DNA from: Deltaproteobacteria bacterium
GTDB taxonomy: Bacteria > Desulfobacterota > Desulfuromonadia > Geobacterales > Pseudopelobacteraceae
Assembly: GCA_021782545.1 (NCBI GenBank)
Contig: JAJXUW010000002.1
Span: forward strand, 1-63,096
Length of the DNA: 63,096 nt
Reading direction: 5' to 3'
Shown here piece by piece: positions 194 to 34,457 of this stretch. The notes beneath the pieces were generated by a model. The model worked only from the letters and a program-made list of their open reading frames with translations, searched no databases and was not told the origin of the DNA. The position numbers and the translations under genes are program-made. Within the stretch, counting starts at the first letter, position 1. Every line of letters begins with the position of its first letter.

Positions 194-221
194 ATTATAC
201 AAGATACGGCACCCACGTCAA
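194..221 (-). promoter_or_regulatory. Sigma-70 type promoter for xseB
   Basis: On the minus strand TTGACG (216-221) and TATAAT (194-199) are separated by 16 bases. The predicted start near 187 gives a leader of about 24 bases with a good GGGGAG ribosome site. The -35 box overlaps the stop codon of the last gene of the lipid operon (stop at 218-220), so it marks the boundary between the two units. Confidence 0.65.
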
Positions 222-1609
222 TGACCGCCTGACAAGGGATGCTGATGGCTGCGCTCCAGCCGTTTGATCATCTTCCAAAGGGGGCCGCGCACCTTGAAGA
301 TCCGCATCGCCTCCAGCATGGCCGGGCTGACATTCACCTCCAGCCCCGGCACGATCCAGTTCCTGCGCTGCATCGCCTGTTCGGTGACGAGTGCCGAGAG
401 CCGGTCTTTCACACCGGGCGCCAGATAGAAGACCGGCTGCAACAGATCGGTCTCCGCGGTGATCACCCCCTCATCGAGGGCCGTTCGATACAGGGGGGTA
501 CCGGGGTAGATACGGATGCCGGTCATGGCGATCACGGCAGTGGGCGCCAGTTCATCCATCAGCCGGAAACTCTCTAAAACGGTCTCCTCGGTCTCGCCCG
601 GACCACCAAACAGCAGGTAGTGGGCAACGTCCATCCCTGCCTCGCGGCACAGTCGCGTGGCACACCGCACCTGTTCAACGGTAAACGATTTCCGCAGATT
701 TTCCAGCATGACAGACGAGCCGGAATCGGTGCCGAACTCCACCCCATCACACCCGGCCCGCTGCATCAGCCCCAACAGGTGCGGGGTGATGAACTCGGGG
801 TTGATAAAGGCCGACCAGCTGACCCGCAGGCCGGCATCCACCATGGCGTTGCAGAGCTGCTCGGCAAAACTGACCGGATAGTTGAAGATGTCATCGACAA
901 AGTAGAGGTAATCCACCCCGAACTGGTCAACCAGCGTCCGTATCTCGGCAATGATCTGATCGACCTGCCGCAGCCGCACCCGTTGCCCTTCCAACAGCGG
1001 ATAGGTGCAGTAGCTGCAGCTAAAGGGGCAGCCCCGCTTGGTCTGGAGATTGGCCATCCCCCCCTCGTTCAAGTAGCGGGCCACCTCGAACAGCTGCCGG
1101 TCGGGGGGGCCGATGGCCTGAATCGACCGCGGGGGGAGGAACGTCTCCCTGCCAGGCACCACCAGACCCGGCAGCTCGGCCGGATCGGCGCCAGAGGCCA
1201 GACAGTGCAGCAGGCGGGGCAGCAGCTCCTCTCCCTCTCCCACCACCCCGTAATCGGCACCACAGGCAGCCAGGATCTCAACCGGCATCAACGAATAGCC
1301 GGAGCCGCCCAGCACCACGGTGGCCCTGCCCGTGCAGACCGCAACCAGCTCGCGCAGGGCAGGCAGATAGGAGACCGCATCCGGCCAGGTGACGTTGTCC
1401 AGGTTGCGCAGCGAAATAACCACGACCTCCGGCTGCCGGGCGTCCAGTGCTGTGGCCACTGCCGCAAGCGGGTCGGCCTCAAAGCAGAGATCGAGGAGCG
1501 AGAGATCGTGACCCGCCTCCCGCAGCGGCCCGGCCAGAAAGGCCAGACCGATCGGAAAGACCGGATAGGGTGAGCGCTCACGATTGGCCGAGATCAACAG
1601 CAGCTTCAC
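218..1609 (-). CDS. B12-binding domain radical SAM protein (last gene of lipid operon)
   Basis: This is a protein of about 463 residues with an N-terminal Rossmann-like cobalamin-binding-type domain (about 1-150; GVVGEGEELLPRLL near 122) and a radical SAM core whose 4Fe-4S cysteines form CPFSCSYC (residues 194, 198 and 201). The usual base-off histidine motif DxHxxG is not seen, as is common in this class. The chosen start is a GTG at 1607-1609 that overlaps the thioesterase stop as GTGA, with GGGAG 7 bases upstream; an ATG at 1630 is the alternative. Class B radical SAM enzymes methylate or rearrange unreactive carbons. Its place in an ACP/acyltransferase operon suggests a lipid substrate (inference). 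The exact reaction is unknown. Confidence 0.8.
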   Translation of the reverse strand: MKLLLISANRERSPYPVFPIGLAFLAGPLREAGHDLSLLDLCFEADPLAAVATALDARQPEVVVISLRNLDNVTWPDAVSYLPALRELVAVCTGRATVVLGGSGYSLMPVEILAACGADYGVVGEGEELLPRLLHCLASGADPAELPGLVVPGRETFLPPRSIQAIGPPDRQLFEVARYLNEGGMANLQTKRGCPFSCSYCTYPLLEGQRVRLRQVDQIIAEIRTLVDQFGVDYLYFVDDIFNYPVSFAEQLCNAMVDAGLRVSWSAFINPEFITPHLLGLMQRAGCDGVEFGTDSGSSVMLENLRKSFTVEQVRCATRLCREAGMDVAHYLLFGGPGETEETVLESFRLMDELAPTAVIAMTGIRIYPGTPLYRTALDEGVITAETDLLQPVFYLAPGVKDRLSALVTEQAMQRRNWIVPGLEVNVSPAMLEAMRIFKVRGPLWKMIKRLERSHQHPLSGGH

Positions 1610-2034
1610 GGCGTCTCTCCCGCTGCCCATCGCTGCATCTGCGCCACCCGCGGGGCCACCGCATCCGGCAGCCTGAACTGCAGCATCCCCTGCAGGTCGG
1701 TCAGGGCATGCGTTGTCCGGGCAGTGGCGAGCCTGCTGCCATCGTCGCTGGTAATCTCGCTCACAAAGATCAGGTTGGCCGCCTCGCTCGCCTCCAGGGT
1801 GGTGCGGATGGTGAGGGTGTCATCGCAGCGTGCCGGTCGCAGGTACTTGATCTCCAGCTGTACCACCGGCCCCAGAAACCCCAGTTCGGACAATTGGAAC
1901 GGATCGAGGCCGAAACGCCGGGCAAGGTTGGTGCGTCCCACCTCCAGCCAGCTTACATAGTGGCCGTGCCAGGCCACCCGGTAGGCATCCACCTCATTAA
2001 AGCGGACCGTTATGTTGGTTTCGTCCCAGATCAC
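1606..2034 (-). CDS. Hotdog-fold acyl-CoA/acyl-ACP thioesterase (4HBT family)
   Basis: About 142 residues from the GTG at 2032-2034, which overlaps the upstream stop as GTGA; an ATG at 2058 would add 8 residues and a larger overlap. The N-terminal region VRFNEVDAYRVAWHGHY matches the 4-hydroxybenzoyl-CoA thioesterase / YbgC family, where this helix carries the catalytic acid (here the Asp in EVDAY, in place of the common DTD) and contacts the thioester. The family hydrolyses acyl thioesters. In this operon it could release a modified chain from the dedicated ACP or proofread wrong acyl groups (inference). The substrate cannot be read from sequence. Confidence 0.82.
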   Translation of the reverse strand: MIWDETNITVRFNEVDAYRVAWHGHYVSWLEVGRTNLARRFGLDPFQLSELGFLGPVVQLEIKYLRPARCDDTLTIRTTLEASEAANLIFVSEITSDDGSRLATARTTHALTDLQGMLQFRLPDAVAPRVAQMQRWAAGETP

Positions 2035-2876
2035 GCTGCCGCCTCCGCATCGATCCAACGGTTGAATTTGGTCAGGGCCTGGCCGCTGCCCACCTCGCAG
2101 AAACGGGTGCAGCCGGCGGTACGCAGATGCCGCCAGGTCTGTTCCCAGTAGACCGGCTGCAGCAGTTCGTTCACCACAAAGGACGGGATGGCCGAAGCGG
2201 TCAGGCGGGTCTGGCCGATATGCTCCACCAGCGGCACCAACGGTTCCTCAAACCGGCAATCGGCGACGATTGCAGCCAGTTGGCCGCTTAACTCGGCCAT
2301 CAGCGGGGTATGCAGCGGCGCCTCACAGGGAAACTGACTCACCGAGAATGCCCCCGCCTCCTGGCAGGCTGCCAGGGCCGTTTCAACGGCTGACGCCGTC
2401 CCTGCCAACAGAAAATGGCTGGAGGTGTTGTAGTTGGCCAGATAGGCCCCGCTCCCGCCTACTGCCGATTCCAGTGCCTGGCGTCTGATGCCGACGGCGC
2501 AGCCCAGGGCGTAGGACTGCCGGTCTCCCATGGCGGCCATGCAGGTACCGATCCGGCCAGCCAGCGCCAGGGCATCCCCTTCAGCAATGCTGCCGCTTAC
2601 CGACAGGGCGGCATAGATGCCCAGCGAATGTTCGGCGATCAGATCAGGCCGTTCTCCGTCACGGCGCAACCGTCGGGCCCGGTAGAGCGACATGGCCACG
2701 CCGTAGAGCTGCAGCATGGTATGGTGGCTTACAAGGCAGCCGGAAAGTGCACGATGATTGACCAGATCATAGCCGCAACACTCCCGGCAGAGCCGGTCGA
2801 TGTCCCGGAAATCGTCATCTTTGGGCAGCGCGGCCTCCCGTTTCAACGGTTGGCCGGGAAACAGCCAGAGGGTCAT
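2031..2876 (-). CDS. FabD-like (malonyl-CoA:ACP transacylase-type) acyltransferase
   Basis: 281 residues from the ATG at 2874-2876, which overlaps the preceding stop as ATGA. The acyltransferase nucleophile elbow is EHSLG (Ser84; GHSLG in canonical FabD), the active-site histidine is in PLHTPLM (His189), and an arginine in LAGRIGTCM (about 108) sits where FabD binds the malonyl carboxylate. The N-terminus reads FPGQPLKRE instead of the usual GQGSQ loop, so the oxyanion-hole region differs from housekeeping FabD. The family moves an acyl group from CoA to an ACP thiol. The likely partner is the ACP at 6876-7133 (inference). No ketosynthase accompanies it, which makes a standard chain-extension role uncertain. 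Confidence 0.8.
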   Translation of the reverse strand: MTLWLFPGQPLKREAALPKDDDFRDIDRLCRECCGYDLVNHRALSGCLVSHHTMLQLYGVAMSLYRARRLRRDGERPDLIAEHSLGIYAALSVSGSIAEGDALALAGRIGTCMAAMGDRQSYALGCAVGIRRQALESAVGGSGAYLANYNTSSHFLLAGTASAVETALAACQEAGAFSVSQFPCEAPLHTPLMAELSGQLAAIVADCRFEEPLVPLVEHIGQTRLTASAIPSFVVNELLQPVYWEQTWRHLRTAGCTRFCEVGSGQALTKFNRWIDAEAAA

Positions 2877-4300
2877 GGCGCCACTCCTGCCATGGCCGGA
2901 CAGGAGGCGTAATACTCCTTTAGGTATTCTGCTGGTTTCATCATGGTCTGCGTGCGCCACAACACCTTGATAATGTAGGGGATCTGCGAGGGGCGCACCT
3001 GGCGCACCCAGTCCAGGATTCCCTTGTCACCAGCAGTGTTCAGGATCGAACGCCGCCAGGTCTCGGCGTACAGTTCGAAAAACCGCCGCGGCCCGAGCTT
3101 CGGCTCCCACAGCAGATGGTGCATGTCGAAGTTGGCCCAGGGCTGCCCGGCCGCCTTGTGGGCCACCGACCGGTAGTAGTCGGTACCGGGCAGCGGGGTC
3201 AGGATGGTAAAGCCGGCCCGCTGCAGGCCATACCGTTCCACAAACCCCCACAACTGGTGAAAGTCCTGTTCATCCCATTCCGGGTCCACCAGGAAGTTGC
3301 CGTTGATGCCGTACGAGAGCTCACGGGCGATCCGCACCGCCTCGATGCTTTCCGTGATGCCGGAGTCCTTGTCTAGGCCCTTGAGGCCACGGTCACTGGC
3401 CGCCTCCAACCCCAGAAAAATATCGAAATCCTTGGCCAGTGGCCGCCAGGCGGCCATGATCTCGGCGCTCCTGCAGATCAGATCGGTGCGGGTCTGCACC
3501 AGTATCCAGCGCTTGTAGACGCCCCGTTTTTTGAGCGCCGCGGCAAGCTCCAGGCTACGGGCGGGGTTGTGCCAGAACAGGTCGTCCGCCACAAAGACCG
3601 CATCGCCGCTCTCTGCAAAATCCTCCACCACCGCCTCTATCGAACGCTCGCGGCAGGTCCGATCGTAGAGCTGCCAGACCGAGCAGAATGAGCAGCGGTG
3701 CGGGCATCCCCGGGCGGTCTCGATCAGCCAGACCGGCTTGAACAGCAGGCAGTGGTACCCGTTGCGGTGCTGTTTGACCAGCTGCCGTGCCGGTAACGGC
3801 ACCAGATCGAGGGACGGACGCTCCGCCAGTTCCGGGGTGGCGATCCATCCGTCAGCGGTGTGCAGCCGCAGACCGGGCACCTGGGTTAACGCCGCCCCCT
3901 GCTCAAGACACTGCGCCACGCGCGGCATCAGTACCTCGCCATCCTCCACCATCACGGCGTCAACGACGTCATCCTCCAACGGACCGCTGAAGGCCGCCGC
4001 GGCATGCCCCCCCACCATGATGAACGCCTCCGGCGCCAGCCGCCGCACCTCGCGGGCGGTTGCCAACACCCGGTCGAACTCCAGGGTATGCAGACAGCTG
4101 ATGCCCACCAATCGGGGCCGGCAACGTCGCACCCAGGTGGCAAGGGCAGGCCTGAAACGCAGATCGGCGATGGTTACCTGGTGGCCCGCCTGCAACAGGG
4201 CAGCGCCGATATACTCAAGCCCCAGCGGCTCCACGCAAAAGAACGGGCCAAGCCCGAACCGATCGTTACCGGGATGGGGACGCAACAGCAGGATGTTCAT
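2873..4300 (-). CDS. B12-binding radical SAM protein resembling hopanoid C-3 methylase HpnR
   Basis: 475 residues from the ATG at 4298-4300, overlapping the upstream stop as ATGA. The N-terminus MNILLLRPHPGNDRF followed by VEPLGLEYIGAALLQAGH is a cobalamin-binding-type Rossmann domain. The radical SAM cysteines are in CPHRCSFC (199, 203, 206), followed by SVWQLYDRTCRERSIEAVV and then VADDLFWHNPARS. From memory these blocks resemble HpnR, the B12-radical SAM enzyme that methylates hopanoids at C-3; this has not been verified by alignment. No squalene-hopene cyclase or other hpn gene is in the window, so the substrate may be a hopanoid made elsewhere or a different lipid. Translational coupling links it to its neighbours. 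Confidence 0.75.
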   Translation of the reverse strand: MNILLLRPHPGNDRFGLGPFFCVEPLGLEYIGAALLQAGHQVTIADLRFRPALATWVRRCRPRLVGISCLHTLEFDRVLATAREVRRLAPEAFIMVGGHAAAAFSGPLEDDVVDAVMVEDGEVLMPRVAQCLEQGAALTQVPGLRLHTADGWIATPELAERPSLDLVPLPARQLVKQHRNGYHCLLFKPVWLIETARGCPHRCSFCSVWQLYDRTCRERSIEAVVEDFAESGDAVFVADDLFWHNPARSLELAAALKKRGVYKRWILVQTRTDLICRSAEIMAAWRPLAKDFDIFLGLEAASDRGLKGLDKDSGITESIEAVRIARELSYGINGNFLVDPEWDEQDFHQLWGFVERYGLQRAGFTILTPLPGTDYYRSVAHKAAGQPWANFDMHHLLWEPKLGPRRFFELYAETWRRSILNTAGDKGILDWVRQVRPSQIPYIIKVLWRTQTMMKPAEYLKEYYASCPAMAGVAP

Positions 4301-5577
4301 GGTGCTGTGTTCTCCTGTGCATAAATACCGCCACGACGCAAGATGTTGTACAGCAGATTGATCCCCTTGCCGGGACTCTGCAGCACACGGCCGGCGATAG
4401 ACGACCAATGGTACGCCTCACGACGGGCCTCCTGCCATCCCTGGTAGAGCCGCTTTGGTGTCATCTGTCTTGGCCGGTAGACCACCTGACCATGATCGTA
4501 GCGCTGCCAGTCGGTATGCAGTAAACGCCCCTCCTGTTGGAACTGCTGAAACAGGGCCGTCCCGGGGTAGGGGGTCAGGATGTGAAAGGTGGGCAGGCTG
4601 ACAGCGCATCGTTCAAGATACCGCACCGTACGCTCGAAGATCCCCTCATCGTGGTCGTCGAAACCGAAGATCACCGATCCCTCCACCACCACCCCGGTAT
4701 CGCGGATCCGTTTGATAAGCTCGGCCTGGGAGGAACGACCGGCGGTCTTGGGGTGGTTGGCAAAGGCCCCATCGGCCGATTCAAGCCCCACAAAGATGCC
4801 GATACAGCCGGAATCCGCCAAAAGCCGCACCAGTTCGGGGTCTTCCGCGAAACGCAGGTTCGCCTGCCCGCCCCACTTGAGGCCCATGCCGGCCATCCCT
4901 TTCAAGATCGGTCTGGCGCGTTCAGGATCGCCCAGAATGTTATCGTCCAAAAACACCATCAGCCCCGGTTCAAAACTTGCCAGTTCCGCCAGGACATCAT
5001 CAGGATCGCGATAACGGAAGCTACGGCCGAAATAGGGGGTAACGGTACAGAACGGGCAGTCATAGGGACAACCGCGACTGGCCTGCAGGGTACGGGTAGT
5101 CAGATACCTGCGGGAGCCCAGAAAATCGCGACGCGACCAGGGGATAACCAGGCGGTTGCCGCTGGGAACCGACCGGTAGAACTGTTGTAACCTACCCTGC
5201 TGCAGATCGTCCAACAGACCAGCCCATACCGGTTCGGCCTCACCGATCACCACGCTGTCGGCATGCCCGATCGCCTCATCGGGCAAGACCGTGGGATGGA
5301 TGCCGCCCAGCGCCACGGGAACGCCGCGTACCCTGAACCGGTCGGCGATCTGATAGGCCCGCACCGCCTGATGGGTCATGGCGGTAATCGCCACCAGATC
5401 ATAGTCCCCGTCGAAATCAATCTCCTCCTGCACCTCGTCGGCCAGCAACACCTCCCATGCAGGCGGCGTCGCGGCAGCCACCTGCTTAAGGGATAGTGAC
5501 GGCAGCTGAAACCGTTTGACCCACCCCAATCTATGGGTGGCAGGATAGACCAGCAGCAGACGCGGCCGCCTGTTCAT
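4297..5577 (-). CDS. B12-binding radical SAM protein, tandem paralogue A
   Basis: 426 residues from the ATG at 5575-5577 (ATGA overlap with the upstream stop). The N-terminal cobalamin-type domain carries GGIHPTVLPDEA (about 91-102) and DSVVIGEAE. The 4Fe-4S cysteines are in CPYDCPFC (170, 174, 177). It is clearly related to the next upstream gene: both have PSLSL or PTLSL, then VAA.TPP.WEV near residue 30-42, and GG.H...LPDEA. The radical SAM core ends in a conserved FHILTPYPGT block. The family is radical methylases and related enzymes, and the substrate is not identifiable. Two closely related copies side by side suggest successive chemically similar steps or paralogue specialisation (inference). 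Confidence 0.8.
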   Translation of the reverse strand: MNRRPRLLLVYPATHRLGWVKRFQLPSLSLKQVAAATPPAWEVLLADEVQEEIDFDGDYDLVAITAMTHQAVRAYQIADRFRVRGVPVALGGIHPTVLPDEAIGHADSVVIGEAEPVWAGLLDDLQQGRLQQFYRSVPSGNRLVIPWSRRDFLGSRRYLTTRTLQASRGCPYDCPFCTVTPYFGRSFRYRDPDDVLAELASFEPGLMVFLDDNILGDPERARPILKGMAGMGLKWGGQANLRFAEDPELVRLLADSGCIGIFVGLESADGAFANHPKTAGRSSQAELIKRIRDTGVVVEGSVIFGFDDHDEGIFERTVRYLERCAVSLPTFHILTPYPGTALFQQFQQEGRLLHTDWQRYDHGQVVYRPRQMTPKRLYQGWQEARREAYHWSSIAGRVLQSPGKGINLLYNILRRGGIYAQENTAP

Positions 5578-6860
5578 GCCCCGACCCGTTTCCTGCGGAT
5601 GGCTGCACGGAAACCGATATTCATCACCCCGAAGACCTGCAACGATCGGTGCAGTTTGAACAGCCGCCGGTACATGGAACCAAAGGAATAGAACGAGCGG
5701 CAGATCTGGTCGTAGCCGTCCTGCAGTTCCTGCACGGTCATCCCGCTGGGCTGGAAGGTGACATGCTCCATGTCGTAATCCTGCCAATTGTTGTTGAAGA
5801 TGCGGCCTTCCGCCTCCAGACGCCTGCGGACGGTGGTGCCGGGGTACGGCGTCAGGATCGGGAAGATGGCCGACTCCAGCCGGGCATCCTCACAAAAACG
5901 TAAGGTCTGCTCGAACACCGCCGGGGTATCGCCGTCGCAGCCCATCACAAAGGAGCCCAGAATGCCGATACCGTGATCGCGGAACTGCTGGGCGTATTCC
6001 TTGTAGGACACCGCCTTGTTGGTGACCTTGCCCATGGCGACCAGGGAGGACTGATTCAGCGATTCAAACCCGACAAACATCCCCACGCAGCCTGATTCGC
6101 CGGCAGCCTTGAGCATCTCCCGATCCTCGGCAAAATCGATCGGCGCATGGGAGAGCCATTTGATCCCCATCCCCTGCATCCCCTCGAACAACGGCAGGGA
6201 GTAACGGCGGTCGGCCACGATGTTGTCATCGACAAAAAAGACGAACGAATTGACCCTACGCAGCTGTTCCAGTTCGGCCAGCACCTGCTCAACCGGCCGT
6301 TTGCGGTAGTTGCGGCCATAAAAAGCGGTTACGGAACAGAACTCGCAATCAAAGGGGCAGCCACGGGTAGTCTGGATGGTATTGGTAAAGAAATGGCCGG
6401 AACCCTTAAAAATATCCCTGCGGGCCGGCGGGATCAGACTGGCGTCCAGCAGGCCATCGGCCCGGTAGACAGGCTGCAACCGGCCGGCCTGGAAATCGGC
6501 CAGCAGCTGCGGCCAGACCAGCTCCCCCTCCCCTACCACCACGCTGTCAACATGCTGGAGCGCCTCGTCCGGCAGGTTGCTGGCGTGGAAACCGCCCATC
6601 ACCACGGTCTTGCCCCGTTCACGAAAGGCATCAGCCAGCTGGTAGGCCCGGGTGACCTGGGCGGTCATGGCGGTCAGGGCGATCAGATCGGCATCGCTGT
6701 CAAACGGCGTAGGCTTAATGGCGTCATCATGAAACGCCACCTCCCACTGCGGTGGCGTCACCGCCGCAACAGCCGCCAGCGACAGGGTGGGGAACTTGAA
6801 GCCGAGTTCTCCCCACAGCCGCCCTTTGGGCCAACCTGGGGACAGGAAGAGGATCTTCAT
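5574..6860 (-). CDS. B12-binding radical SAM protein, tandem paralogue B
   Basis: 428 residues from the ATG at 6858-6860, 15 bases after the ACP stop. The cobalamin-type domain contains GGFHASNLPDEA (about 89-100) and DSVVVGEGE; the radical SAM cluster is CPFDCEFC (168, 172, 175). The C-terminal third has a PILTPYPGTTVRRRL block and a basic tail. It is a paralogue of the gene at 4297-5577. Being placed directly behind the ACP and ahead of paralogue A, it is probably co-translated with both. No DxHxxG cobalamin histidine is visible. The reaction is inferred only at class level: radical methylation or rearrangement. Confidence 0.8.
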   Translation of the reverse strand: MKILFLSPGWPKGRLWGELGFKFPTLSLAAVAAVTPPQWEVAFHDDAIKPTPFDSDADLIALTAMTAQVTRAYQLADAFRERGKTVVMGGFHASNLPDEALQHVDSVVVGEGELVWPQLLADFQAGRLQPVYRADGLLDASLIPPARRDIFKGSGHFFTNTIQTTRGCPFDCEFCSVTAFYGRNYRKRPVEQVLAELEQLRRVNSFVFFVDDNIVADRRYSLPLFEGMQGMGIKWLSHAPIDFAEDREMLKAAGESGCVGMFVGFESLNQSSLVAMGKVTNKAVSYKEYAQQFRDHGIGILGSFVMGCDGDTPAVFEQTLRFCEDARLESAIFPILTPYPGTTVRRRLEAEGRIFNNNWQDYDMEHVTFQPSGMTVQELQDGYDQICRSFYSFGSMYRRLFKLHRSLQVFGVMNIGFRAAIRRKRVGA

Positions 6861-6875
6861 CCGAAGTTCCCTGGG

Positions 6876-7133
6876 CTAGTTGCGCTGTTCGGCGATATAG
6901 GCGGCCATGGCCCGCACCGAGGCGAACACCTTGGTGCCGGTGTCAGCATCCGGCACCACCACACCGAACTCCTTCTCCATGGCCACCACCAGCTGCAGGG
7001 CATCGATGGAATCAAGCCCCAACCCCTCGCCAAACAGAGGGGCATCGCTGTCGATCTCATCGGGGGCCATCCCCTCGATCCGCAGTGCGTCAATGATCAT
7101 CTGCTTTACCTGGGGTACCAACTCATCAGACAT
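6876..7133 (-). CDS. Dedicated acyl carrier protein
   Basis: 85 residues with the phosphopantetheine attachment site GLGLDSIDAL (Ser42) and the helical ACP pattern around it. Two ATGs are possible (7137-7139 and 7131-7133). The second is chosen because AAGGA stands 6 bases before it, but abuts the first. It overlaps the upstream acyltransferase gene by 8 bases. It is not the housekeeping acpP, which normally lies in a fab cluster, and its helix-III region VVVPDADTGTKVFASV differs from standard AcpP. It most likely carries the acyl substrate on which the surrounding radical SAM, acyltransferase and thioesterase proteins act (inference). Confidence 0.88.
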   Translation of the reverse strand: MSDELVPQVKQMIIDALRIEGMAPDEIDSDAPLFGEGLGLDSIDALQLVVAMEKEFGVVVPDADTGTKVFASVRAMAAYIAEQRN

Positions 7134-8025
7134 GTTCATTCCTTTGCGTAGAGTTCCAGAAATCGAAAAATGTATACCACTGATCGGGATACTGCCGGAT
7201 ATACCGTTCAAACACCCGCGCAAGACGGCTCATTCCCTCCTGTACCACCTCGCGGTTGTGGCCCGGACGTCCCGAAAAAAAGATCGCCTCCTCCATCAGT
7301 GTGGCGTAGCGCCCATCCGCCTCAAGTACCACAAACACAGGGATTAGCGGCGCTCCGGTGGCCAGTGACAAATGGGCGGCACCTGCCGGCAACGATGTCG
7401 GCCGGCCGAAGAACGGCACCGTAACGGTATTGGACGAACCATCCCGGTCGCCGATCAGACAGACGATCTCGTTACGACGCAAGGCATTGACCGCCTCGAT
7501 GATGGCCAGGGGTGAGCTGTCGTCACGATCAACGTAAATAACGCCGATGCCCCGTTCCTGCCGGACCTGACGACGCTGTTCATTAAACTTTTCGTCCGGC
7601 TCCCGAAAGGTGAGTACATTGACCGTGTAGCCCAGATCGGCCAGCCCCAGCCCCCCCAGCTCCCAGGTGCCCAGATGGGGCGAGATCAGGATCGCGCCGG
7701 TGCCGGCGCTCAATGCCGCTTCAAGTGGCCGGGGGTCACTACGCCTGCCGATCAGCTTCTGCAAGGCCTGGCCGCGCAGCCGGGACATGAGCACCAGATC
7801 GCACCAGTTGCGGCAAAATTTGTACATCATGGAGAAGACCAGTCGTTCAACATCCCGCCGGCCGGTCACAATCACAAGATTTTTTCGGGCTGCCCGGCGT
7901 TGGGGGACCGCCAGCAGATAGGAGCAGAGCGCTGCCACCCCTGCAAACGGCGGAATCAGCCAGCGCGGCACCAGACGGGTCAATACCCCTATCAATGCCA
8001 GATTGGAACTGCTGTACAGGGCCAT
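7126..8025 (-). CDS. LpxL/HtrB-type lysophospholipid acyltransferase
   Basis: 299 residues from the ATG at 8023-8025; a longer reading frame upstream is non-conserved. One hydrophobic segment near residues 8-40 anchors it in the inner membrane. The catalytic motif HLGTWE (His117, Glu122; HX4D/E) is in the context ILISPHLGTWELGG, and a second block GDRDGSSNTVTVPFFGR matches LpxL/LpxM-type enzymes. The family transfers acyl chains from ACP to lipid A precursors or, in other clusters, to glycolipids. Its overlap with the dedicated ACP gene suggests that ACP is its acyl donor (inference). It is preceded by GGGG and sits 14 bases after the stop of the SPASM gene. Confidence 0.85.
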   Translation of the reverse strand: MALYSSSNLALIGVLTRLVPRWLIPPFAGVAALCSYLLAVPQRRAARKNLVIVTGRRDVERLVFSMMYKFCRNWCDLVLMSRLRGQALQKLIGRRSDPRPLEAALSAGTGAILISPHLGTWELGGLGLADLGYTVNVLTFREPDEKFNEQRRQVRQERGIGVIYVDRDDSSPLAIIEAVNALRRNEIVCLIGDRDGSSNTVTVPFFGRPTSLPAGAAHLSLATGAPLIPVFVVLEADGRYATLMEEAIFFSGRPGHNREVVQEGMSRLARVFERYIRQYPDQWYTFFDFWNSTQRNEHV

Positions 8026-8039
8026 CCGCCGCCCTACCC

Positions 8040-9416
8040 CTAACGTTTTCCTGTAGTGCGCTGCCGCACCGGATGCCCTTTGAACTCCTCCTCCCAGGCC
8101 TGGTCGGCAATCTCTCCGTAGCTGCGGGCGTAGTTGTCCATCCGCTCCGCCAAGGTGGTGAAAATCGTCTCGGCACCCTCGTGGGTCGGATAGGCCCCCT
8201 CGCTCGCAAAAAACTCGCGGCCGTAGTCGGGATGATCGATCAGCATGCACGGGCGCAACAGGTTGTCATGTTCTCCCTGCTTTTCCCGGATCTTGCGGAA
8301 TAGTGGCGAACCGAGCGCCTCCTGCAGGCTGCTGCGACGGATGTTATCCACGGCAAAGTGGCAGAAAACGCAGGGTTCAATATCGCCATTGGCGTTGATG
8401 TGGACATACTTGCGACCACCGGCTATGCAACCGGAGATGATCGGTCCATCGTTCCAGAAATCGACAAACAGCATCGGCCGGGTGGCACGAAACTCCACCG
8501 TGGCCCGCCGCAGTCGGTCGCGTTGTTCAGGACTGGGCATCAGATCGGGGTTTGGCTCCCTCCCCACCGGCACGTAGGAGAACAACCAGAGGGCGAAGAC
8601 CCCCTGTTCCAGCAGAAAGTCGATATAGGTGGGGTCGGTGATAATAGCGGTATTTTTGCTGGAATGGGTAAAGGAACCGCAGAAGGAGAGCCCGTTTTCC
8701 CGCAAGAGCCGCATGGCGTGCAGCACCTTGTCAAAATGGCCGGCACCACGCCGTTCGTCGGTCTCGTGACGGTACCCCTCCAGCGAGAAGGCCGGCATGA
8801 CATTGCCCACCTCGATCAGACGTTGCACCATCGCCTCGTCGATCAGGCCGCCGTGGGTAAACACTAAGAAGGCCATATCGCTATGTTTTTTAAACAGCTC
8901 GAAGATGCCATCCATAAAAAACGGTTCACCGCCGGAGATCACCGCAAAATAGATCCCCATCTCCTTCATCTGGGTCAATACGCCGTCGATCTCCTCAAGC
9001 GACAGTTCCAACGATTTATTGTAATCGCCGGCGTAACAGCCGTAGCAGGAGAGGTTGCAGCGCATGGTGACCGAAATGACCATGGTGGAGGGGGGATAAA
9101 AACCGTGTCTGTCGGCCCACTCCTTGCGTCGGTTGGTGCCGGACAGGAGGTGGTTTACCGCCAGATTGGTGATCCACTTGTCGCGCTGGTTGGGGTGCAA
9201 ATCACGCAGGATACGGCGGGGAAACGCTATGGAGGGGTGCTTCGTCCGAATCAGTTCGCGGATCCAGCGTATACGGTCCTTGTAGTACTCCTTCTTCGGA
9301 ATCAGCTCCATCAGATGCGTCATCTTAATCAGGGTCTCGTCGGACGAGGAGGTCGCCAGCGAGAGCAGATACGAAACCAGCTTGTCGCGGGTATAGGTCT
9401 TCAGAGATTGCAGCAT
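8040..9416 (-). CDS. Radical SAM/SPASM domain protein
   Basis: 458 residues. A helical N-terminal extension (about 1-110) precedes the radical SAM core with MRCNLSCYGCYAG (Cys120, 124, 127), a GGEPFF motif near 162-167, and a C-terminal SPASM-like region with cysteines at about 330, 349, 352 and 390 (GCIAGGRKYVHINANGDIEP, then CVFC). Extra Fe-S clusters are therefore likely. Unlike the other four radical SAM proteins here it has no cobalamin domain. SPASM proteins modify peptides or, in some families, lipids and sugars; in this operon a lipid or carrier substrate is the natural guess. It is not HpnH-like at the cysteine motif. Confidence 0.82.
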   Translation of the reverse strand: MLQSLKTYTRDKLVSYLLSLATSSSDETLIKMTHLMELIPKKEYYKDRIRWIRELIRTKHPSIAFPRRILRDLHPNQRDKWITNLAVNHLLSGTNRRKEWADRHGFYPPSTMVISVTMRCNLSCYGCYAGDYNKSLELSLEEIDGVLTQMKEMGIYFAVISGGEPFFMDGIFELFKKHSDMAFLVFTHGGLIDEAMVQRLIEVGNVMPAFSLEGYRHETDERRGAGHFDKVLHAMRLLRENGLSFCGSFTHSSKNTAIITDPTYIDFLLEQGVFALWLFSYVPVGREPNPDLMPSPEQRDRLRRATVEFRATRPMLFVDFWNDGPIISGCIAGGRKYVHINANGDIEPCVFCHFAVDNIRRSSLQEALGSPLFRKIREKQGEHDNLLRPCMLIDHPDYGREFFASEGAYPTHEGAETIFTTLAERMDNYARSYGEIADQAWEEEFKGHPVRQRTTGKR

Positions 9417-9445
9417 GAGACTACCTCAATGGTTGAGAAGGGTTT

Positions 9446-10108
9446 CTACAGGTATTTCAGGAACGTCATACAGATATTCCAGGTGTCCGGCACCGCCCGA
9501 TAATGGCTGGTTGCACGGCCGTCTGCCACCCGTGCCGGCACGGGCAGGGAGCCGATGGTGAACCCGGCGCGCCAGCACTTCATAAGCAGCTCCATCTCCA
9601 GGTCGTAGCCATCTTTTTCCAGCACGACCGACCGCAGCAGGTCGGCACGATAGTAACGAAAACCTGACTGGCTGTCGCTGATCTCAAACCCGGTCCGCTT
9701 GCGGAGGCACCAGACGCCAAAACGGTTCCATACTTTGCGCAGGCCGGCCATCTGCTCGAACTGGCTGTGCCGCGAGGCCAGCAGAATACCGAAGCCCCCT
9801 GACCGCGCAGCGGCCACCAGACGGGGAATGGCGGAAGGATCATGCTGCCCATCGGCATCCAGCGTGATGATGCCAGTATACCCGTTTGCTAGGGCCCAGT
9901 CAAAACCGGTACGCAGGGCTGCCCCTTTTCCCCGGTTGGCTGCATGACGAAGGACGGTTACCGGCAGGTCATTAATCTGGGGTGCCGTACCGTCATGGGA
10001 GCCGTCATCCACCACCACCACCGGCAGCCCCTGTGCCAGACAGTCGACAACTACCTGCCGCAGGGTACGGGCGGCGTTATAGGCCGGTATCAGGATACAG
10101 TCTGCCAT
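9446..10108 (-). CDS. Family 2 glycosyltransferase (dolichyl/undecaprenyl-phosphate type)
   Basis: 220 residues from the ATG at 10106-10108; it overlaps the deacetylase gene by 19 bases. A GT-A fold is shown by ILIPAYNAARTL at the start, VVVDDGSHDGT, the DXD-type LDADGQHDP metal site, and SDSQSGFRYYR. The closest architecture is the DPM1-like soluble GT2 group that transfers a hexose from a nucleotide sugar to a polyprenyl phosphate or lipid. No membrane segments follow. With the deacetylase it implies that the operon's product carries a sugar (inference). Confidence 0.85.
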   Translation of the reverse strand: MADCILIPAYNAARTLRQVVVDCLAQGLPVVVVDDGSHDGTAPQINDLPVTVLRHAANRGKGAALRTGFDWALANGYTGIITLDADGQHDPSAIPRLVAAARSGGFGILLASRHSQFEQMAGLRKVWNRFGVWCLRKRTGFEISDSQSGFRYYRADLLRSVVLEKDGYDLEMELLMKCWRAGFTIGSLPVPARVADGRATSHYRAVPDTWNICMTFLKYL

Positions 10109-10947
10109 GCCTCGACCACTTCTCCCAACGGTTTGAATGCAAATCCCCGCAACAGGGCGGTCAACCGGTGAGCGGCACTCGTACGGCAACCATAGGCCAC
10201 AAACCCGCGGAAGAGCCCCAAATCGAGACGAGGCCCGTGCGGATCGACTTCGCGGGGATGCACAAACAACACCCCTGGCAGCCCTTGGTGCTGATAGGCC
10301 TGCACGGTATGCCGGATAAACCAGTTTGGAAAGAACCTGAACCCCCAGCCCCCGCCGGTGGGCAGATTGCCGAAAGGGGTGCTGGTGACCAAGGGGGGCA
10401 GCTCCCATATCCCGCTGCACGAAGACGTTGCAATCCAGTGGGGGTTGCGTGGGCCACGCGGATTTCCGATGGCTGCCAGGGGAGTCAGGCTGCTGTCGTA
10501 GCGATACCCCTGTTCTGCCAGGATATCAAAGGCCCAGGGTGTCGTCTCCCGGCTTAGGGACCAGCGCGGGGCGCGAAAACCGAACGGCCGCCTGCCGGTC
10601 TGCTGCTCGAGCAGATCTGCGGTCCGCACAAGCTCGGCACGAAACTCCTCCGCTGAAAGCCCCGTCACCAGGCGATGCGACCAGCCGTGTGAAGCGAGTT
10701 CGTGCCCATCTGCGGCAATGCGCGGCGCCAGATCAGGATGCTGCTGTGCCACAGAACCGAGCATAAAGAACGTCCCCCGCACCCCGCAGGTCTGCAGCAG
10801 TTCCAGCACGAGACCAACCGCCTGTTCAACCCGCTCTTGGTGACGAATCCGCTCCTGGGCGGGGACGTAACCGCAGACGTGGTACCAGTCTTCAACATCG
10901 ACGGTTATGGCATGGGCGATGATGCCTGAGTGCCGTTCAATAGGCAT
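10090..10947 (-). CDS. Polysaccharide deacetylase family protein (NodB-like, DUF3473 type), first gene of lipid operon
   Basis: 285 residues. The NodB homology domain begins HAITVDVEDWYHVCGY; the metal site is formed by the VDVED aspartates and the HELASHGWSH histidines, followed by FRAPRWSLS. The C-terminal part (GGGWGFRFFPNWFIR, FVHPREVDP) matches the DUF3473-type extension of deacetylases associated with exopolysaccharide/exosortase loci. No signal peptide is seen, so it probably acts in the cytoplasm on a lipid-linked sugar (inference). The promoter at 10954-10983 places transcription start on or next to this ATG, and no Shine-Dalgarno is present. Confidence 0.87.
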   Translation of the reverse strand: MPIERHSGIIAHAITVDVEDWYHVCGYVPAQERIRHQERVEQAVGLVLELLQTCGVRGTFFMLGSVAQQHPDLAPRIAADGHELASHGWSHRLVTGLSAEEFRAELVRTADLLEQQTGRRPFGFRAPRWSLSRETTPWAFDILAEQGYRYDSSLTPLAAIGNPRGPRNPHWIATSSCSGIWELPPLVTSTPFGNLPTGGGWGFRFFPNWFIRHTVQAYQHQGLPGVLFVHPREVDPHGPRLDLGLFRGFVAYGCRTSAAHRLTALLRGFAFKPLGEVVEAWQTVS

Positions 10948-10953
10948 TTTACG

Positions 10954-10983
10954 TTAATACCCGAATAGCAGCAGTGCTGTCAA
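10954..10983 (-). promoter_or_regulatory. Promoter of the 11-gene lipid operon (predicted leaderless)
   Basis: On the minus strand TTGACA (10978-10983) and TATTAA (10954-10959) are separated by 18 bases. The A of the deacetylase ATG (10947) is the seventh base after the -10 box, the usual transcription start distance. No ribosome-binding sequence lies between. The -35 box overlaps the stop codon of the cas6-like gene. Confidence 0.6.
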
Positions 10984-11765
10984 GAAAGCGGGCGTATCTG
11001 AAACGCCCCCATCCCAAACGAGGCACCTTTGCCCAGGTGCAGCAAGGCACCAATATCCAGCAGCGGCCCCAACGCATCGCAGGGGCCCTGCAGGGTGAAG
11101 CTGCCCAGTACGCCGCGCTGTCCCTGCGGTGCCGGTAGCGGCCTGGCGTCAACCAGACGCATGCCGCCAGCCAGCTCGGCCAGCCGGATAAAGGTTTCCG
11201 GATTGCCGGCGGCGCCGTAATGGGCAACCAACGATGAAAACCGCCGCAACACGCCGCGCGCAAACCGGACCGGTTCAAAACGCCTGAGTTCCCGCCCTTC
11301 GGCCATCAAACGCAAAGGCGTCTGCAACTGCACCTGCAGACAGTGGCAGGCGGTATACCGTGGGGTAGCCAGGTCCAGCAGCCCGGCCAACGAAAGCACC
11401 GGCAGTTCAGCGCCGCCCCTGGGGCGCTGGAGCACAACATCTCCCTGATAATCAAGGGCAAACAACTGCGGTGGGTGAGGCATGCCGGCCAGGTCGGTCA
11501 CCGTCGCCACGACCGCGGGCAATTCGGCAATGGCAGGCCCTGCTAGAAGACAATCCAGCACACCGCAACAGGGCACAGAAAGGACGAACGGCAGCCCCGG
11601 CTTTTGATGGCGACGTACCAGTTCGGGATCGCTTGAGAGGGTTCGCCGGCAGAGGTTGGCCAAATGCTGCTCGATGGCGGCCCGCTGTGTCGACAAGGCC
11701 GTCACCAGCCTCTGTTCATAAGGAGCCGCAAGCGGTATGCGCAGCCGGACAATATTCAGATCCAC
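10980..11765 (-). CDS. Orphan Cas6-like CRISPR precursor-RNA endoribonuclease (RAMP fold)
   Basis: 261 residues from a GTG at 11763-11765. The C-terminal half ends GALLHLGKGASFGMGAFQI, the glycine-rich loop of the Cas6 C-terminal domain (DUF2276 type), preceded by LGSFTLQGPCDALGPLLDIG. The N-terminal half carries a CCGVLDCLLAGPA segment rather than a typical first ferredoxin repeat. Cas6 cuts CRISPR transcripts at repeats. No CRISPR repeats and no other cas genes are in the window. It follows the cation efflux gene by 4 bases and precedes the lipid operon promoter. It could serve a CRISPR locus elsewhere or have another RNA substrate. Confidence 0.72.
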   Translation of the reverse strand: MDLNIVRLRIPLAAPYEQRLVTALSTQRAAIEQHLANLCRRTLSSDPELVRRHQKPGLPFVLSVPCCGVLDCLLAGPAIAELPAVVATVTDLAGMPHPPQLFALDYQGDVVLQRPRGGAELPVLSLAGLLDLATPRYTACHCLQVQLQTPLRLMAEGRELRRFEPVRFARGVLRRFSSLVAHYGAAGNPETFIRLAELAGGMRLVDARPLPAPQGQRGVLGSFTLQGPCDALGPLLDIGALLHLGKGASFGMGAFQIRPLS

Positions 11766-11769
11766 GTTG

Positions 11770-12669
11770 TTATAACCTGATCAGGTCCTCATGCGCTTCG
11801 TCATGGGGATTGATGTGGATCATCACGTCACCGACGTTGTTCATCCGGTCGAAAATCAGACGTTTGACCGCAGTGGCCACGTCGTGCGACTCCTTGACGG
11901 TCATCACCGGGTCCATGTCCAGCTTGAGGTCGACAATGTAGTACTGGCCCGAACGCCGCGTCCGGAGCTCATGCACATGCTCGACACAGGCGACACTCTC
12001 TGCCAACTTGGTCACGGTGCGATTGAACTCTTCCGGCGCGGCGCCATCCATCAGATCGTGGGCTGCACCGCTTACGGTCTCCCAGCCTATGTGCAGAATG
12101 AAAAATGAGGTGAGGGCCGCCGCCAACGGGTCCATGATGCCGTACCCAAGCCAGGCACCGAGCACCCCCACCAAGGTTGAGATCGAGGTGACGGCATCTT
12201 TGCGGTGGTCTTTGGCAACGGCCATCAGGGCCGGGCTGCCCAGGCTGGCCCCGGTCTTCATTGACCAGCGGTAGAGGGCTTCCTTGATAACGATGGTGAT
12301 TGCGGCAGCGGCAATGGCGATCAGTCCGGGAGATTTGTAGCGGTGATGCACAATGGTCTGTATCGACTCCACAAAAATCCAGATACCGGTGCCCAGGATC
12401 AGCAGCGCCACCACGGCCGCCGCCAGGGATTCTGCCTTGCCGTGGCCGTAGGGATGACGTTCGTCAAAGCACCGACGCCCCACCCGCAAGGCGAACAGGG
12501 TGGTGAAGATGGCGATAAAATCACAGCCGCTCTCGATGCCGTCGGCAAAGACTGCATCGGAATGCCCCCAATAGCCGGCTGCCAGTTTCAAGACCATCAG
12601 GACGGCGTTAATCCAGAAACCGATGGTGATGATCCGCTCGGCGTTATCGAAACGTTCCTCTCGTTGCAT
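11770..12669 (-). CDS. Cation diffusion facilitator family transporter
   Basis: 299 residues with six predicted membrane segments and a C-terminal cytoplasmic domain. Metal-site candidates are ADGIESGCDF in TM2 and KDHRKDAV in TM5, and the loop HPYGHGKAE after TM2 is a CDF hallmark. The C-terminal domain (about 210-299) has the usual dimerisation fold with HVHELRTRRSG and VMIHINPHDE. The family exports Zn, Fe, Mn or Co by proton antiport. The TM2 site has Asp plus Glu/Asp rather than a typical HxxxD, so the metal is not predicted. It lies 6 bases after recJ and 4 bases before the Cas6-like gene. Confidence 0.88.
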   Translation of the reverse strand: MQREERFDNAERIITIGFWINAVLMVLKLAAGYWGHSDAVFADGIESGCDFIAIFTTLFALRVGRRCFDERHPYGHGKAESLAAAVVALLILGTGIWIFVESIQTIVHHRYKSPGLIAIAAAAITIVIKEALYRWSMKTGASLGSPALMAVAKDHRKDAVTSISTLVGVLGAWLGYGIMDPLAAALTSFFILHIGWETVSGAAHDLMDGAAPEEFNRTVTKLAESVACVEHVHELRTRRSGQYYIVDLKLDMDPVMTVKESHDVATAVKRLIFDRMNNVGDVMIHINPHDEAHEDLIRL

Positions 12670-12675
12670 GGTGTC

Positions 12676-14379
12676 CTACTCCGCTTGCTTAAAATCCCGA
12701 AGCCGCACTTGCAGCCGCATCCCCCCGCCCCAGGTGTCGATCTCCGGCGTGCCGACAAGATCGAGCAGGTCGGGCACCTGGCGACCGGCCATACGCCAGC
12801 CGATCGCATGCACATACTGGCGCCCCCGCCCCAGACGCAAACGCAGGTGATCGGTGCCGATCACCTTCTGCTCCATCACCCGCAGACCCCTGATACAGAT
12901 TACCGGCTCCGGATTACCGGCACCAAAAGGCGCCAGCCGTTGCAGGTCAGTCACCAGCGGCACGGCCAGCGCCTCCGGTTCAAGTTCTGCATCGATCAGC
13001 AGCGTGGGCGTCAACAGGTCACGGTCAAGACGGCGGGCAGCAGCCTGTTCAAAGGCCTGCGCAAAGGCCTCACACTGAGCGGCCAGAAGCGTTACGCCGG
13101 CCGCGGCCCGGTGCCCCCCATACCGCTGCAGCAACGGGGCACAGTCATGCAGGGCCTCAAGCAGGTGAAAACCGGGAATACTGCGCCCCGATCCCTTGGC
13201 CGTTGCGTCGTCCTGTAACGCCAAAACTATAGTTGGACGATGATAACGCTCCACCAGGCGAGATGCAACAATACCGATCACGCCAGGATGCCAGCCGGCG
13301 GAAGCCAAGACAATACTGTACCGCCCCGTCACACCGCTGCCAGCCTCGACCATTTCGACCGCCTGGTGCACTATGGCCTGTTCCAGCGCCTGTCGGGTAT
13401 GGTTTGCCTCGTTCAGTTCCCCGGCCAGCCGGTCGGCCTGCTGCCGATCGTCGGTCAGTAACAGCTCTACACCCGGCACGGCACTTTCCAGGCGTCCGGC
13501 GGCGTTTAGACGCGGTGCCAGCCGGAACCCGACCTGGCCAGCCGTGACCTGCCCCGTGACGCCGGATATCTGTTTGAGCGCGGCAAGCCCGGTGCGGGCC
13601 GCCCCCCCCATCCGCTGCAGGCCGGCCGCCACCAACAGACGGTTCTGTCCGGTAAGCGGCACCACATCGGCGACGGTGCCCAGCGCGACCAGATCCAGCC
13701 AGTTCCGGAGGTCGGGACCGTCATCGTCGAGAGTCCCTTCTCCGCGTAACCGGGCACGCAGCCCCACCAGCAGGTTAAAGGCCACCCCCACCCCGGCCAG
13801 CCCCTTGAACGGATAGGTGCAATCAGCACGCTGCGGGTTGATGACGGCCACCGCCTCCGGCAGGAGATCAAGCGGCTGGTGGTGATCGGTGATAATCAGG
13901 TCCAGCCCGATCTCCCGGCAGACCAGCGCCTCCTCAATGCCGGTGACGCCGCAATCGACGGTGACGCACAGCGCTGTTCCCGTCTTGCGGATCATCCGCA
14001 ATGCGTCGCTATTCAGGCCATAGCCATCTTCCAGACGATGGGGAATATGGTAACCAGCCTGCACCCCAAGCGCATGCAGCCCGGAAACCAGCAAAGCCGT
14101 CGCAGTAACCCCATCCACATCGTAATCGCCGTAAATACAGACCGGCTCCCGCCGCTGTCTGGCCCGCACAAGGCGTTCCACTGCCTGCTCCATACCGGCC
14201 AGCAGGAACGGATCCAGCATCCCGGAAAGTGTGGGGTTCAAAAACTCCTGTGCCGTGGCCGGCGTGGTTACACCACGACCCGCCAACACCCGCGCTATGG
14301 CTGGCGTCAGGCCCAGCTCAGCCGTAAGTGTATCTACCGCGGCCTGATCGGCCTCTTTTAAAAGCCAGGTGGTCTGCAT
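12676..14379 (-). CDS. recJ: Single-stranded-DNA-specific exonuclease RecJ
   Basis: 567 residues from the ATG at 14377-14379, where family similarity begins (MQTTWLLKEAD). DHH phosphoesterase motifs are in order: YGDYDVDGVTATALL, TVDCGVTG, ITDHHQP, and DLVALGTVADVVPL, followed by the DHHA1 motif KGSGRSIPGFHLL and GGHRAAAGVTL. A C-terminal OB domain follows (APFGAGNPEPV). It degrades 5-prime ends of single-stranded DNA in recombination and repair. Its apparent Shine-Dalgarno (AGGGGG) is the 3-prime arm of the terminator hairpin of the upstream TPR gene, so its translation or expression may be tied to that structure. Confidence 0.95.
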   Translation of the reverse strand: MQTTWLLKEADQAAVDTLTAELGLTPAIARVLAGRGVTTPATAQEFLNPTLSGMLDPFLLAGMEQAVERLVRARQRREPVCIYGDYDVDGVTATALLVSGLHALGVQAGYHIPHRLEDGYGLNSDALRMIRKTGTALCVTVDCGVTGIEEALVCREIGLDLIITDHHQPLDLLPEAVAVINPQRADCTYPFKGLAGVGVAFNLLVGLRARLRGEGTLDDDGPDLRNWLDLVALGTVADVVPLTGQNRLLVAAGLQRMGGAARTGLAALKQISGVTGQVTAGQVGFRLAPRLNAAGRLESAVPGVELLLTDDRQQADRLAGELNEANHTRQALEQAIVHQAVEMVEAGSGVTGRYSIVLASAGWHPGVIGIVASRLVERYHRPTIVLALQDDATAKGSGRSIPGFHLLEALHDCAPLLQRYGGHRAAAGVTLLAAQCEAFAQAFEQAAARRLDRDLLTPTLLIDAELEPEALAVPLVTDLQRLAPFGAGNPEPVICIRGLRVMEQKVIGTDHLRLRLGRGRQYVHAIGWRMAGRQVPDLLDLVGTPEIDTWGGGMRLQVRLRDFKQAE

Positions 14380-14385
14380 AAACAA

Positions 14386-14409
14386 AAGCCCCCTTGAGGG
14401 AGGGGGCTT
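14386..14409 (-). terminator. Rho-independent terminator after the TPR gene, overlapping the recJ ribosome site
   Basis: On the minus strand AAGCCCCCT and AGGGGGCTT form a perfect 9-bp stem with a 6-base loop, followed by TTGTTT. It ends only 6 bases before the recJ ATG, so the AGGGGG of the second arm is also the best recJ Shine-Dalgarno. Confidence 0.75.
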
Positions 14410-14416
14410 GAAGCTC

Positions 14417-14983
14417 CTAGTTGCCGGCCGGTAATTGCTGCAATATAGCCCGGGCCTGACTGCCCAATTCGCCGGTTTTGTCAAGTCGGATAACCTTTTC
14501 AAACACAGGGCGGGCCTTGGCCGGCTGTTTCAAATCAATGGCATAGACAATGCCCAAATTATAGAGACTTTGCAGATGCTGGGGGTTGAGTTTGTTGGCC
14601 TTTTCAAAATTGGCCACCGCCTTGTCGAAGAAGCCCAAGGCCCGGAACATCACCCCCTGATCGGTCAGCACGTTTGCATCGTTGGGATTGAGCGCCAACG
14701 CCTTGGCATAGGCCTGTACCGCCTTCTGGGGGCTTTTGGCGTCGTAGTAGGCGTTACCCAAAGCCACCCAGGCCTGCACGTTTTGCGAATCTTTGGCCAC
14801 CACCTTTTCCATCTCGTCGATTTTGGCGTTGACATCCACCGCGCTGGCCAGCGGAGCGGCATCCTGGGCCGGCGATGACGCTGTGGTGGCACCGCCTCCC
14901 AGCATCTTGCCACCCACCAGGACCCCCAGCAAAAAACCGATGATCAGTCCGGCCACAGCGAAGGCGATAGATTCCTTATTCAT
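14417..14983 (-). CDS. Membrane-anchored tetratricopeptide repeat protein
   Basis: 188 residues. One N-terminal membrane segment (FAVAGLIIGFLLGVLVGG, about 8-25) is followed by a low-complexity linker and three to four TPR units: VQAWVALGNAYYDAKSPQKA, ANVLTDQGVMFRALGFFDKA, and HLQSLYNLGIVYAIDLKQPA. TPRs are protein-docking modules. Without an obvious signal cleavage site it is probably anchored in the inner membrane with the repeats outside the cytoplasm or facing it. Being 9 bases behind secF suggests co-transcription with the Sec genes, but a direct role in secretion is not shown. A strong terminator follows. Confidence 0.85.
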   Translation of the reverse strand: MNKESIAFAVAGLIIGFLLGVLVGGKMLGGGATTASSPAQDAAPLASAVDVNAKIDEMEKVVAKDSQNVQAWVALGNAYYDAKSPQKAVQAYAKALALNPNDANVLTDQGVMFRALGFFDKAVANFEKANKLNPQHLQSLYNLGIVYAIDLKQPAKARPVFEKVIRLDKTGELGSQARAILQQLPAGN

Positions 14984-14992
14984 GGCATCCCC

Positions 14993-15934: not shown

Positions 15935-15948
15935 GGCTGACGCCTCCC

Positions 15949-26536: not shown

Positions 26537-26584
26537 TGTTAACCAGCACCCCTTCAGCCAAGTTGACAAGCATGGCAAACGAAA

Positions 26585-26607
26585 GGGGGCACACCGCGTG
26601 TGCCCCC
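26585..26607 (-). terminator. Rho-independent terminator after the mannose-1-phosphate guanylyltransferase gene
   Basis: GGGGGCACAC and GTGTGCCCCC form a perfect 10-bp stem with a 3-base loop, followed on the minus strand by TTTCGTTT. It separates the sugar genes from bioF. Confidence 0.85.
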
Positions 26608-26622
26608 GGCAGATTGACGACC

Positions 26623-32111: not shown

Positions 32112-32114
32112 CAA

Positions 32115-33323: not shown

Positions 33324-33349
33324 GTTACTCCTCCTTCAGAATCGGGCGG

Positions 33350-34444: not shown

Positions 34445-34457
34445 CGCTTTATTCTCC

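Follow-up and report, generated by a model that had tools for sequence, protein, structure and literature searches.

The eleven genes at one end of the window, the 63,096-nucleotide stretch of DNA analysed here, probably constitute one half of a pathway of about 20 genes, the second half of which lies on another contig (C56) of the same genome. The combined gene set is likely to represent an aryl-less, radical-SAM-tailored cousin of the aryl polyene (APE) and flexirubin pathways that yields an exported glycolipid. Geobacter is a soil and sediment bacterium, and the host of the eleven-gene locus is a Geobacter relative. The pathway is widespread, and no identified product appears to have been reported for it. 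A sequence-only reading of the window had proposed a lipid or glycolipid pathway built around a dedicated acyl carrier protein (ACP), with tailoring by B12-dependent radical SAM enzymes, and our results support this proposal.

Gene calls and family assignments bore out an unbroken run of eleven co-oriented, tightly packed genes on the minus strand (218–10947), all of the families originally named. From the head, these encode a polysaccharide deacetylase (Polysacc_deac_1 plus DUF3473; 10090–10947), which is a relative of the XrtA type and a putative sugar N-deacetylase, a GT2 glycosyltransferase (9446–10108), a radical SAM/SPASM enzyme with a helical N-terminal extension (8040–9416), an LpxL-type acyltransferase (7126–8025), and an ApeE-type ACP that passes the NF006617/PRK09184 cut-off (6876–7133). 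These are followed by the B12-binding radical SAM proteins rS1 (DUF4070; 5574–6860), rS2, a paralogue of rS1 with 43% identity (4297–5577), and the HpnR-like rS3 (2873–4300), a FabD/MdcH-like malonyl (acyl) transferase (AT; 2031–2876), an ApeK-like 4HBT thioesterase (1606–2034), and a fourth B12-binding radical SAM protein, rS4 (218–1609), the last two with GTG starts. The catalytic motifs were intact throughout: CxxxCxxC in all five radical SAM proteins, DSI in the ACP, HSxG plus His (the Ser-His pair) in the AT, D/HxxxH/RxP/H in the deacetylase, HxxxxE in the LpxL-type enzyme, and DxD in the GT2 enzyme.

The junctions and boundaries were less regular than first described. Most genes had been said to overlap by 4 bases; an exact 4-bp overlap was found at five of the ten junctions, the others being −19, +29, +14, −8, and +15 bp. 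Promoters had been placed at both ends. That of xseB at the tail is clear (221–194 on the minus strand, TTGACG-16-TATAAT, 11 of 12 matches in the scan) and overlaps the rS4 stop, whereas the possible head promoter (10954–10983, minus strand, TTGACA-18-TATTAA), at the end of a Cas6-like gene, is weak, was read by eye, and was absent from the promoter-scan output. Since the Cas6-like gene lies on the same strand and ends 32 bp upstream of the operon head, the head is not firmly bounded.

Conservation of the eleven-gene grouping is far beyond chance, because the core genes are kept across 28 related loci spanning the unit. SPASM, LpxL, ACP, AT, and 4HBT were found in all 28, and the deacetylase, GT2, rS1, and rS4 in 25–26 (rS1 in 25); rS2 (8 of 28) and rS3 (4 of 28) are accessory. 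The gene order, proposed earlier as a check, was also kept. In L109 and L110 the genes form a single run, deacetylase-GT2-SPASM-LpxL-ACP-rS1-AT-4HBT-rS4-FabG-KS1-KS2-DH-LolA-LolB-MMPL (4HBT labelled only in L110, DH only in L109), and L021–L025 show the same continuation downstream of rS4. In most relatives, a ketosynthase pair, ketoreductase, dehydratase, LolA/LolB, and an MMPL exporter lie directly 3′ of rS4.

In the genome studied here, the corresponding genes are on C56, which encodes FabG, an active ketosynthase (KS1), a second ketosynthase (KS2), a dehydratase, LolA, a LolB-like lipoprotein, and an MMPL/HpnN-like exporter. KS1 retains Cys-His-His, and KS2 has none of the three active-site residues, suggesting that it is a non-catalytic protein resembling a chain-length factor (CLF). 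The nearest sequence to KS1 was the housekeeping FabF, which counts against the two-half reading. The location of the halves on separate contigs is a further point against it as regards co-regulation.

Can the window operon act alone? On that model, to which the sequence-only reading corresponds, the private ACP would receive housekeeping fatty acids, the radical SAM enzymes would modify them, and they would be transferred to a glycosylated carrier without a ketosynthase or exporter of the pathway's own. Such genes are indeed absent within the window operon, and two of 76 Geobacteraceae genomes contain the SPASM gene without a KS2 orthologue. However, in most relatives the KS, FabG, LolA, and MMPL genes come immediately after rS4, and the two sets tend to occur together: 45 of the 76 genomes carry both rS4 and KS2, four carry one only, and 27 neither (45/1/3/27; raw counts that ignore phylogeny), and in 34 of the 45 the two genes are on one contig within 12.3 kb. 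Furthermore, both halves were retained after the split, here and in the sister genome G071. We therefore consider a stand-alone operon unlikely. The argument that the locus has no ketosynthase, reductase, or exporter and so is not of the aryl polyene type fails, since these genes are on C56; the idea of a modified acyl chain passing from a private ACP to a sugar carrier remains plausible. As a caution, the absence of a ketosynthase or exporter from a limited window can simply mean that a pathway is split between loci.

The presence of these genes on C56 and their adjacency to rS4 in relatives place the locus among exported lipid pathways of the aryl-polyene/flexirubin type, even though no enzyme for loading an aryl starter was found. 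In a phmmer comparison with the apeA–R proteins of E. coli CFT073, the functions of which were taken from PMC8253772, eight genes of the combined set matched directly: ACP to ApeE (E 1e-22), GT2 and LpxL to the glycosyltransferase and acyltransferase halves of ApeJ (E 1e-23 and 7e-16), 4HBT to ApeK (E 4e-18), FabG to ApeQ, KS1 to ApeO/ApeR, MMPL to ApeM (E 5e-19), and a neighbouring Methyltransf_2 methyltransferase to ApeB. LolA and LolB matched by family and the dehydratase only weakly matched ApeP, while phmmer detected no likeness between KS2 and ApeC. Accordingly, the set shares with APE clusters the ApeE-type ACP and 4HBT thioesterase, the KS/FabG/dehydratase module with a non-catalytic second KS, the GT2/LpxL-type attachment enzymes, and the LolA, LolB-like, and MMPL export genes. 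In contrast to APE clusters, it has one ACP, carries the GT2 and LpxL functions as separate genes rather than fused as in ApeJ, adds a private AT, a deacetylase, a SPASM enzyme, and four to five B12 radical SAM enzymes, and is divided between two loci in this genome. No ApeH-like aryl-ACP ligase was found in the window operon, C56:1-19000, or the complete clusters L109/L110.

From these assignments we infer the chemical steps and the predicted product. The MdcH/FabD-like enzyme would load malonyl units onto the private ACP, and the chain would be extended by KS1 with KS2 as the chain-length factor, FabG, and the dehydratase. With no dedicated enoyl reductase, the chain may be polyunsaturated (polyene-like); a FabI-type reductase acting in trans could instead produce a saturated chain. 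The lack of an ApeH-like ligase in the loci read counts against this scheme as regards the starter unit. The B12 radical SAM enzymes may methylate or cyclise the chain, or act on the sugar head. An amino-sugar head would come from GT2 and the deacetylase, perhaps with the SPASM enzyme, and the LpxL-type enzyme may couple the chain to it; the 4HBT thioesterase would release or proofread the chain, and LolA, the LolB-like lipoprotein, and the MMPL pump would deliver the lipid to the outer membrane.

The locus had been regarded as undescribed, which is too strong, since Rattray et al. 2009 (PMC2649909), in a hunt for ladderane genes, mentioned clusters of SAM-enzyme and FAS genes in Geobacter and Desulfotalea, and since rS4 passes TIGR04072, the NCBI model "lipid biosynthesis B12-binding/radical SAM" (rSAM_ladder; cut-off 360 bits). 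A search of the literature on G. sulfurreducens locus tags, TIGR04072, and a Geobacter polyene lipid found nothing specific. The FASII/SAM clusters of Kuenenia stuttgartiensis and Desulfotalea psychrophila resemble ours in their B12 radical SAM enzymes, ACP, FabF paralogues without active-site residues, and nearby deacetylase and glycosyltransferase. They differ in that ours has additional AT, SPASM, and LpxL genes, and neither phytoene-dehydrogenase-like nor phenylacetate-CoA-ligase-like genes were seen.

A ladderane-like route, in which strained rings for membrane lipids would arise when the B12 radical SAM enzymes cyclise a polyunsaturated chain still bound to the ACP, is conceivable. In its favour, besides the rS4 match to TIGR04072, the substitutions Phe163, Gly328, and Arg333 reported by Rattray et al. 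for NP_951518 of G. sulfurreducens also occur in KS2, and a 2026 preprint (PMC13142503) catalogues Cbl-dependent radical SAM enzymes that do not methylate and refers to this proposal for ladderanes. However, rS4 scores 394 bits, at the low end of a family whose best members in the phylum reach 570–650, and no phytoene-dehydrogenase-like (desaturase-like) oxidoreductase was seen among the annotated genes of the two loci. Moreover, Desulfotalea had no ladderanes despite genes syntenic to those of anammox bacteria, and none were obtained when the proposed anammox genes were expressed heterologously (PMC9821293). A ladderane-like product is thus improbable. An exopolysaccharide or protein-sorting (XrtA/PEP-CTERM) module, with the lipid enzymes serving carrier synthesis, is very unlikely: the deacetylase shares Polysacc_deac_1 and DUF3473 with the XrtA system and one GT2 is present, but the deacetylase scores 207 bits against the TIGR03006 cut-off of 276, the unit contains no exosortase or polymerase, and the ACP, AT, KS-CLF, LolA, and MMPL indicate a lipid. 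Hopanoid modification by HpnR-like and HpnJ-like enzymes with an HpnN transporter, suggested by the shared B12-binding radical SAM architecture, the rS3 score (232 bits over 395 residues), and HpnN as the best NCBIfam match of MMPL, is likewise very unlikely, since all scores are far below the HpnR (TIGR04367; 650) and HpnN cut-offs, no role in hopanoid synthesis is known for ACP, AT, or KS, and hopene cyclase, found in 66 of the 76 genomes, is present in several that lack the cluster, making the co-occurrence with hopanoid genes suggested earlier uninformative.

Our favoured assignment, an APE/flexirubin-related glycolipid pathway, connects the "ladderane-type" radical SAM clusters, a long-unsolved group, with the export machinery of aryl polyenes, which is understood. 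More tentatively, it may define a branch of the APE/flexirubin superfamily that lacks the aryl group and is widespread among anaerobic Desulfobacterota. In this branch several B12 radical SAM enzymes would C-methylate or cyclise a polyene chain built by the KS-CLF pair, the product would be exported as a glycolipid, and the Desulfotalea and anammox "ladderane" clusters would fall within the same superfamily. The 2009 work lists a G. sulfurreducens KS2 carrying the substitutions noted above, so the pathway is probably testable by genetics in a tractable Geobacter, in contrast to uncultivable anammox bacteria.

Two further candidates were rejected. A tetraether-synthase-like lipid-coupling role for the SPASM enzyme was not favoured by sequence and fold searches, which led instead to SuiB, SkfB, BlsE, and PqqE; the nearest folds to its predicted structure (pLDDT 82.4) were SuiB, SkfB, and BlsE. 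An in-frame TGA had suggested selenocysteine in relatives of rS4; in L028, the one locus inspected, the TGA is at the normal 3′ end of the gene, and the alignment had overrun the stop.

The eleven-gene operon is real, conserved and functionally coherent, yet it is half of a larger pathway. Its consecutive minus-strand genes (218-10947) have junctions of -19, +29, +14, -8, +15 and, in five cases, -4 bases, and Pfam and NCBIfam bore out the families that the sequence-only reading had assigned to them. All radical SAM cluster motifs and the ACP serine site are intact, as are the motifs of the acyltransferase (AT), deacetylase, LpxL and GT2. The unit had been described as bounded at both ends: the xseB promoter does close the tail, whereas the head is less clear. 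A stand-alone Cas6-like gene on the same strand (PF10040; 10980-11765) stops 32 bp directly upstream, and the gap region shows no more than an imperfect match to a promoter. This gene adjoins the operon in several relatives too (L009-L020). Elsewhere in the window, biotin-type BioF-, BioH- and BioC-like genes lie in a row (23735-26701), with type IV pilus genes (30465-36179) beyond.

Using the radical SAM/SPASM protein as the query against 84,980 species genomes, we found 44 loci, distributed over the Geobacteraceae, the Syntrophaceae and other Desulfobacterota. Since the closest (82-93% identity) belong to Geobacter sp., Trichlorobacter and related MAGs, including T. thiogenes, the window's genome (a Geobacteraceae draft of 2.05 Mb, 131 contigs, 84% complete) was placed near Trichlorobacter. 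Every one of the 28 loci that cover the unit has SPASM, LpxL, ACP, AT and 4HBT; the deacetylase, GT2 and the B12-binding radical SAM enzymes rS1 and rS4 occur in 25-26 of them, and the B12 enzymes rS2 and rS3 in 8 and 4, respectively; some loci carry additional inserted radical SAM genes. The operon is therefore conserved beyond this genome as a nine-gene core with a variable number of B12 radical SAM enzymes. Other insertions were also observed. In L026, rS1 and the acyltransferase are set apart by two genes within the operon (14008-16375), one resembling a type I restriction-modification methylase and the other antirepressor-like by eye; in the Syntrophaceae-type loci L104 (2-3168) and L042 (7009-10013), a 2-hydroxyacyl-CoA-dehydratase-activase-like trio (DUF2229, BcrAD_BadFG) separates SPASM from LpxL.

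The lack of a ketosynthase, reductase and exporter had been taken to exclude an aryl-polyene-like locus. This argument fails, because such genes lie on another contig, C56, follow rS4 in single runs in relatives and co-occur with it. In many relatives, the genes that come after rS4 encode, in order, FabG, two ketosynthases, a dehydratase, LolA, a lipoprotein and MMPL, and a search of the window's own genome located their counterparts on C56: FabG (4854-5600), KS1 (5597-6826), KS2 (6820-7878), dehydratase (7838-8251), LolA (8248-8862), LolB-like (8869-9561) and MMPL (9566-12085), beside a minus-strand methyltransferase (3710-4687). In the sister genome G071 the genes are split between two loci in the same way, whereas in L109 (on one contig) and L110 they form a single uninterrupted series that begins with the deacetylase and ends with MMPL. 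Among 76 Geobacteraceae genomes, 45 had both rS4 and KS2, 27 neither and 4 were discordant (Fisher P 4e-16, uncorrected for phylogeny); the two share a contig, at most 12.3 kb apart, in 34 of the 45. A 99% complete, one-contig genome of the same genus (G060) is without rS4, KS2 and SPASM alike, a concerted absence within the genus. In L110 (14889-18419) and L109, LolA and the LolB-like gene flank a gene for an alpha-amylase-family protein of about 1170 residues. On C56, a further B12 radical SAM gene, rS5 (12416-13837, minus strand), lies opposite the MMPL gene; in L062 and L063, too, it is found close to the exporter half.

The products of the aryl polyene (APE) gene set make and export APE lipids, polyenes of the outer membrane (PMC8253772). 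Compared with the 18 APE proteins of E. coli CFT073, ACP matches ApeE, 4HBT ApeK, FabG ApeQ, KS1 ApeO/ApeR, MMPL ApeM and the C56 methyltransferase ApeB; GT2 and LpxL match the two halves of ApeJ, and LolA and LolB were matched by Pfam. KS1 retains Cys-His-His; in KS2, Phe replaces the cysteine and both histidines are lost, an active-site loss resembling that of a chain-length factor. An aryl acid is probably not the starter of the chain, since no ApeH-like ligase turned up in the window operon, in C56:1-19000 or in the complete clusters L109 and L110; neither half encodes an enoyl reductase, which suggests a polyene product. From its genes, we predict a new aryl-less, radical-SAM-rich variant of APE-like exported-lipid pathways.

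Co-occurrence with hopanoid genes had been suggested as a check; there is no specific link, since 66 of 76 genomes have a match above the cut-off of the hopene cyclase model, and several of these lack the cluster. As for ladderanes, Rattray et al. (PMC2649909) describe FASII clusters containing SAM radical enzymes in Kuenenia and Desulfotalea and state that members of the genus Geobacter carry comparable ones; KS2 shares the Phe163, Gly328 and Arg333 substitutions of the divergent G. sulfurreducens FabF in their list. rS4 passes the NCBIfam lipid biosynthesis B12-binding/radical SAM model TIGR04072 (394 vs 360 bits) at its low end; top members in the phylum reach 570-650 bits, and several of these sit amid GT2, LpxL, ACP, KS pairs, LolA and MMPL (L094-L099). 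In an open-access library, we found no paper describing the Geobacter pathway or its product. Since the B12 radical SAM enzymes OxsB, HpnJ and BchE do not methylate (PMC13142503), methylation should not be assumed.

The SPASM enzyme was modelled with a mean pLDDT of 82. Its predicted structure resembles SuiB, SkfB, BlsE and PqqE and shows the usual SPASM fold, extended at the N terminus by a helical region. GT2-SPASM pairs without ACP genes nearby occur in other Desulfobacterota, which hints that SPASM may belong to the sugar side of the pathway.
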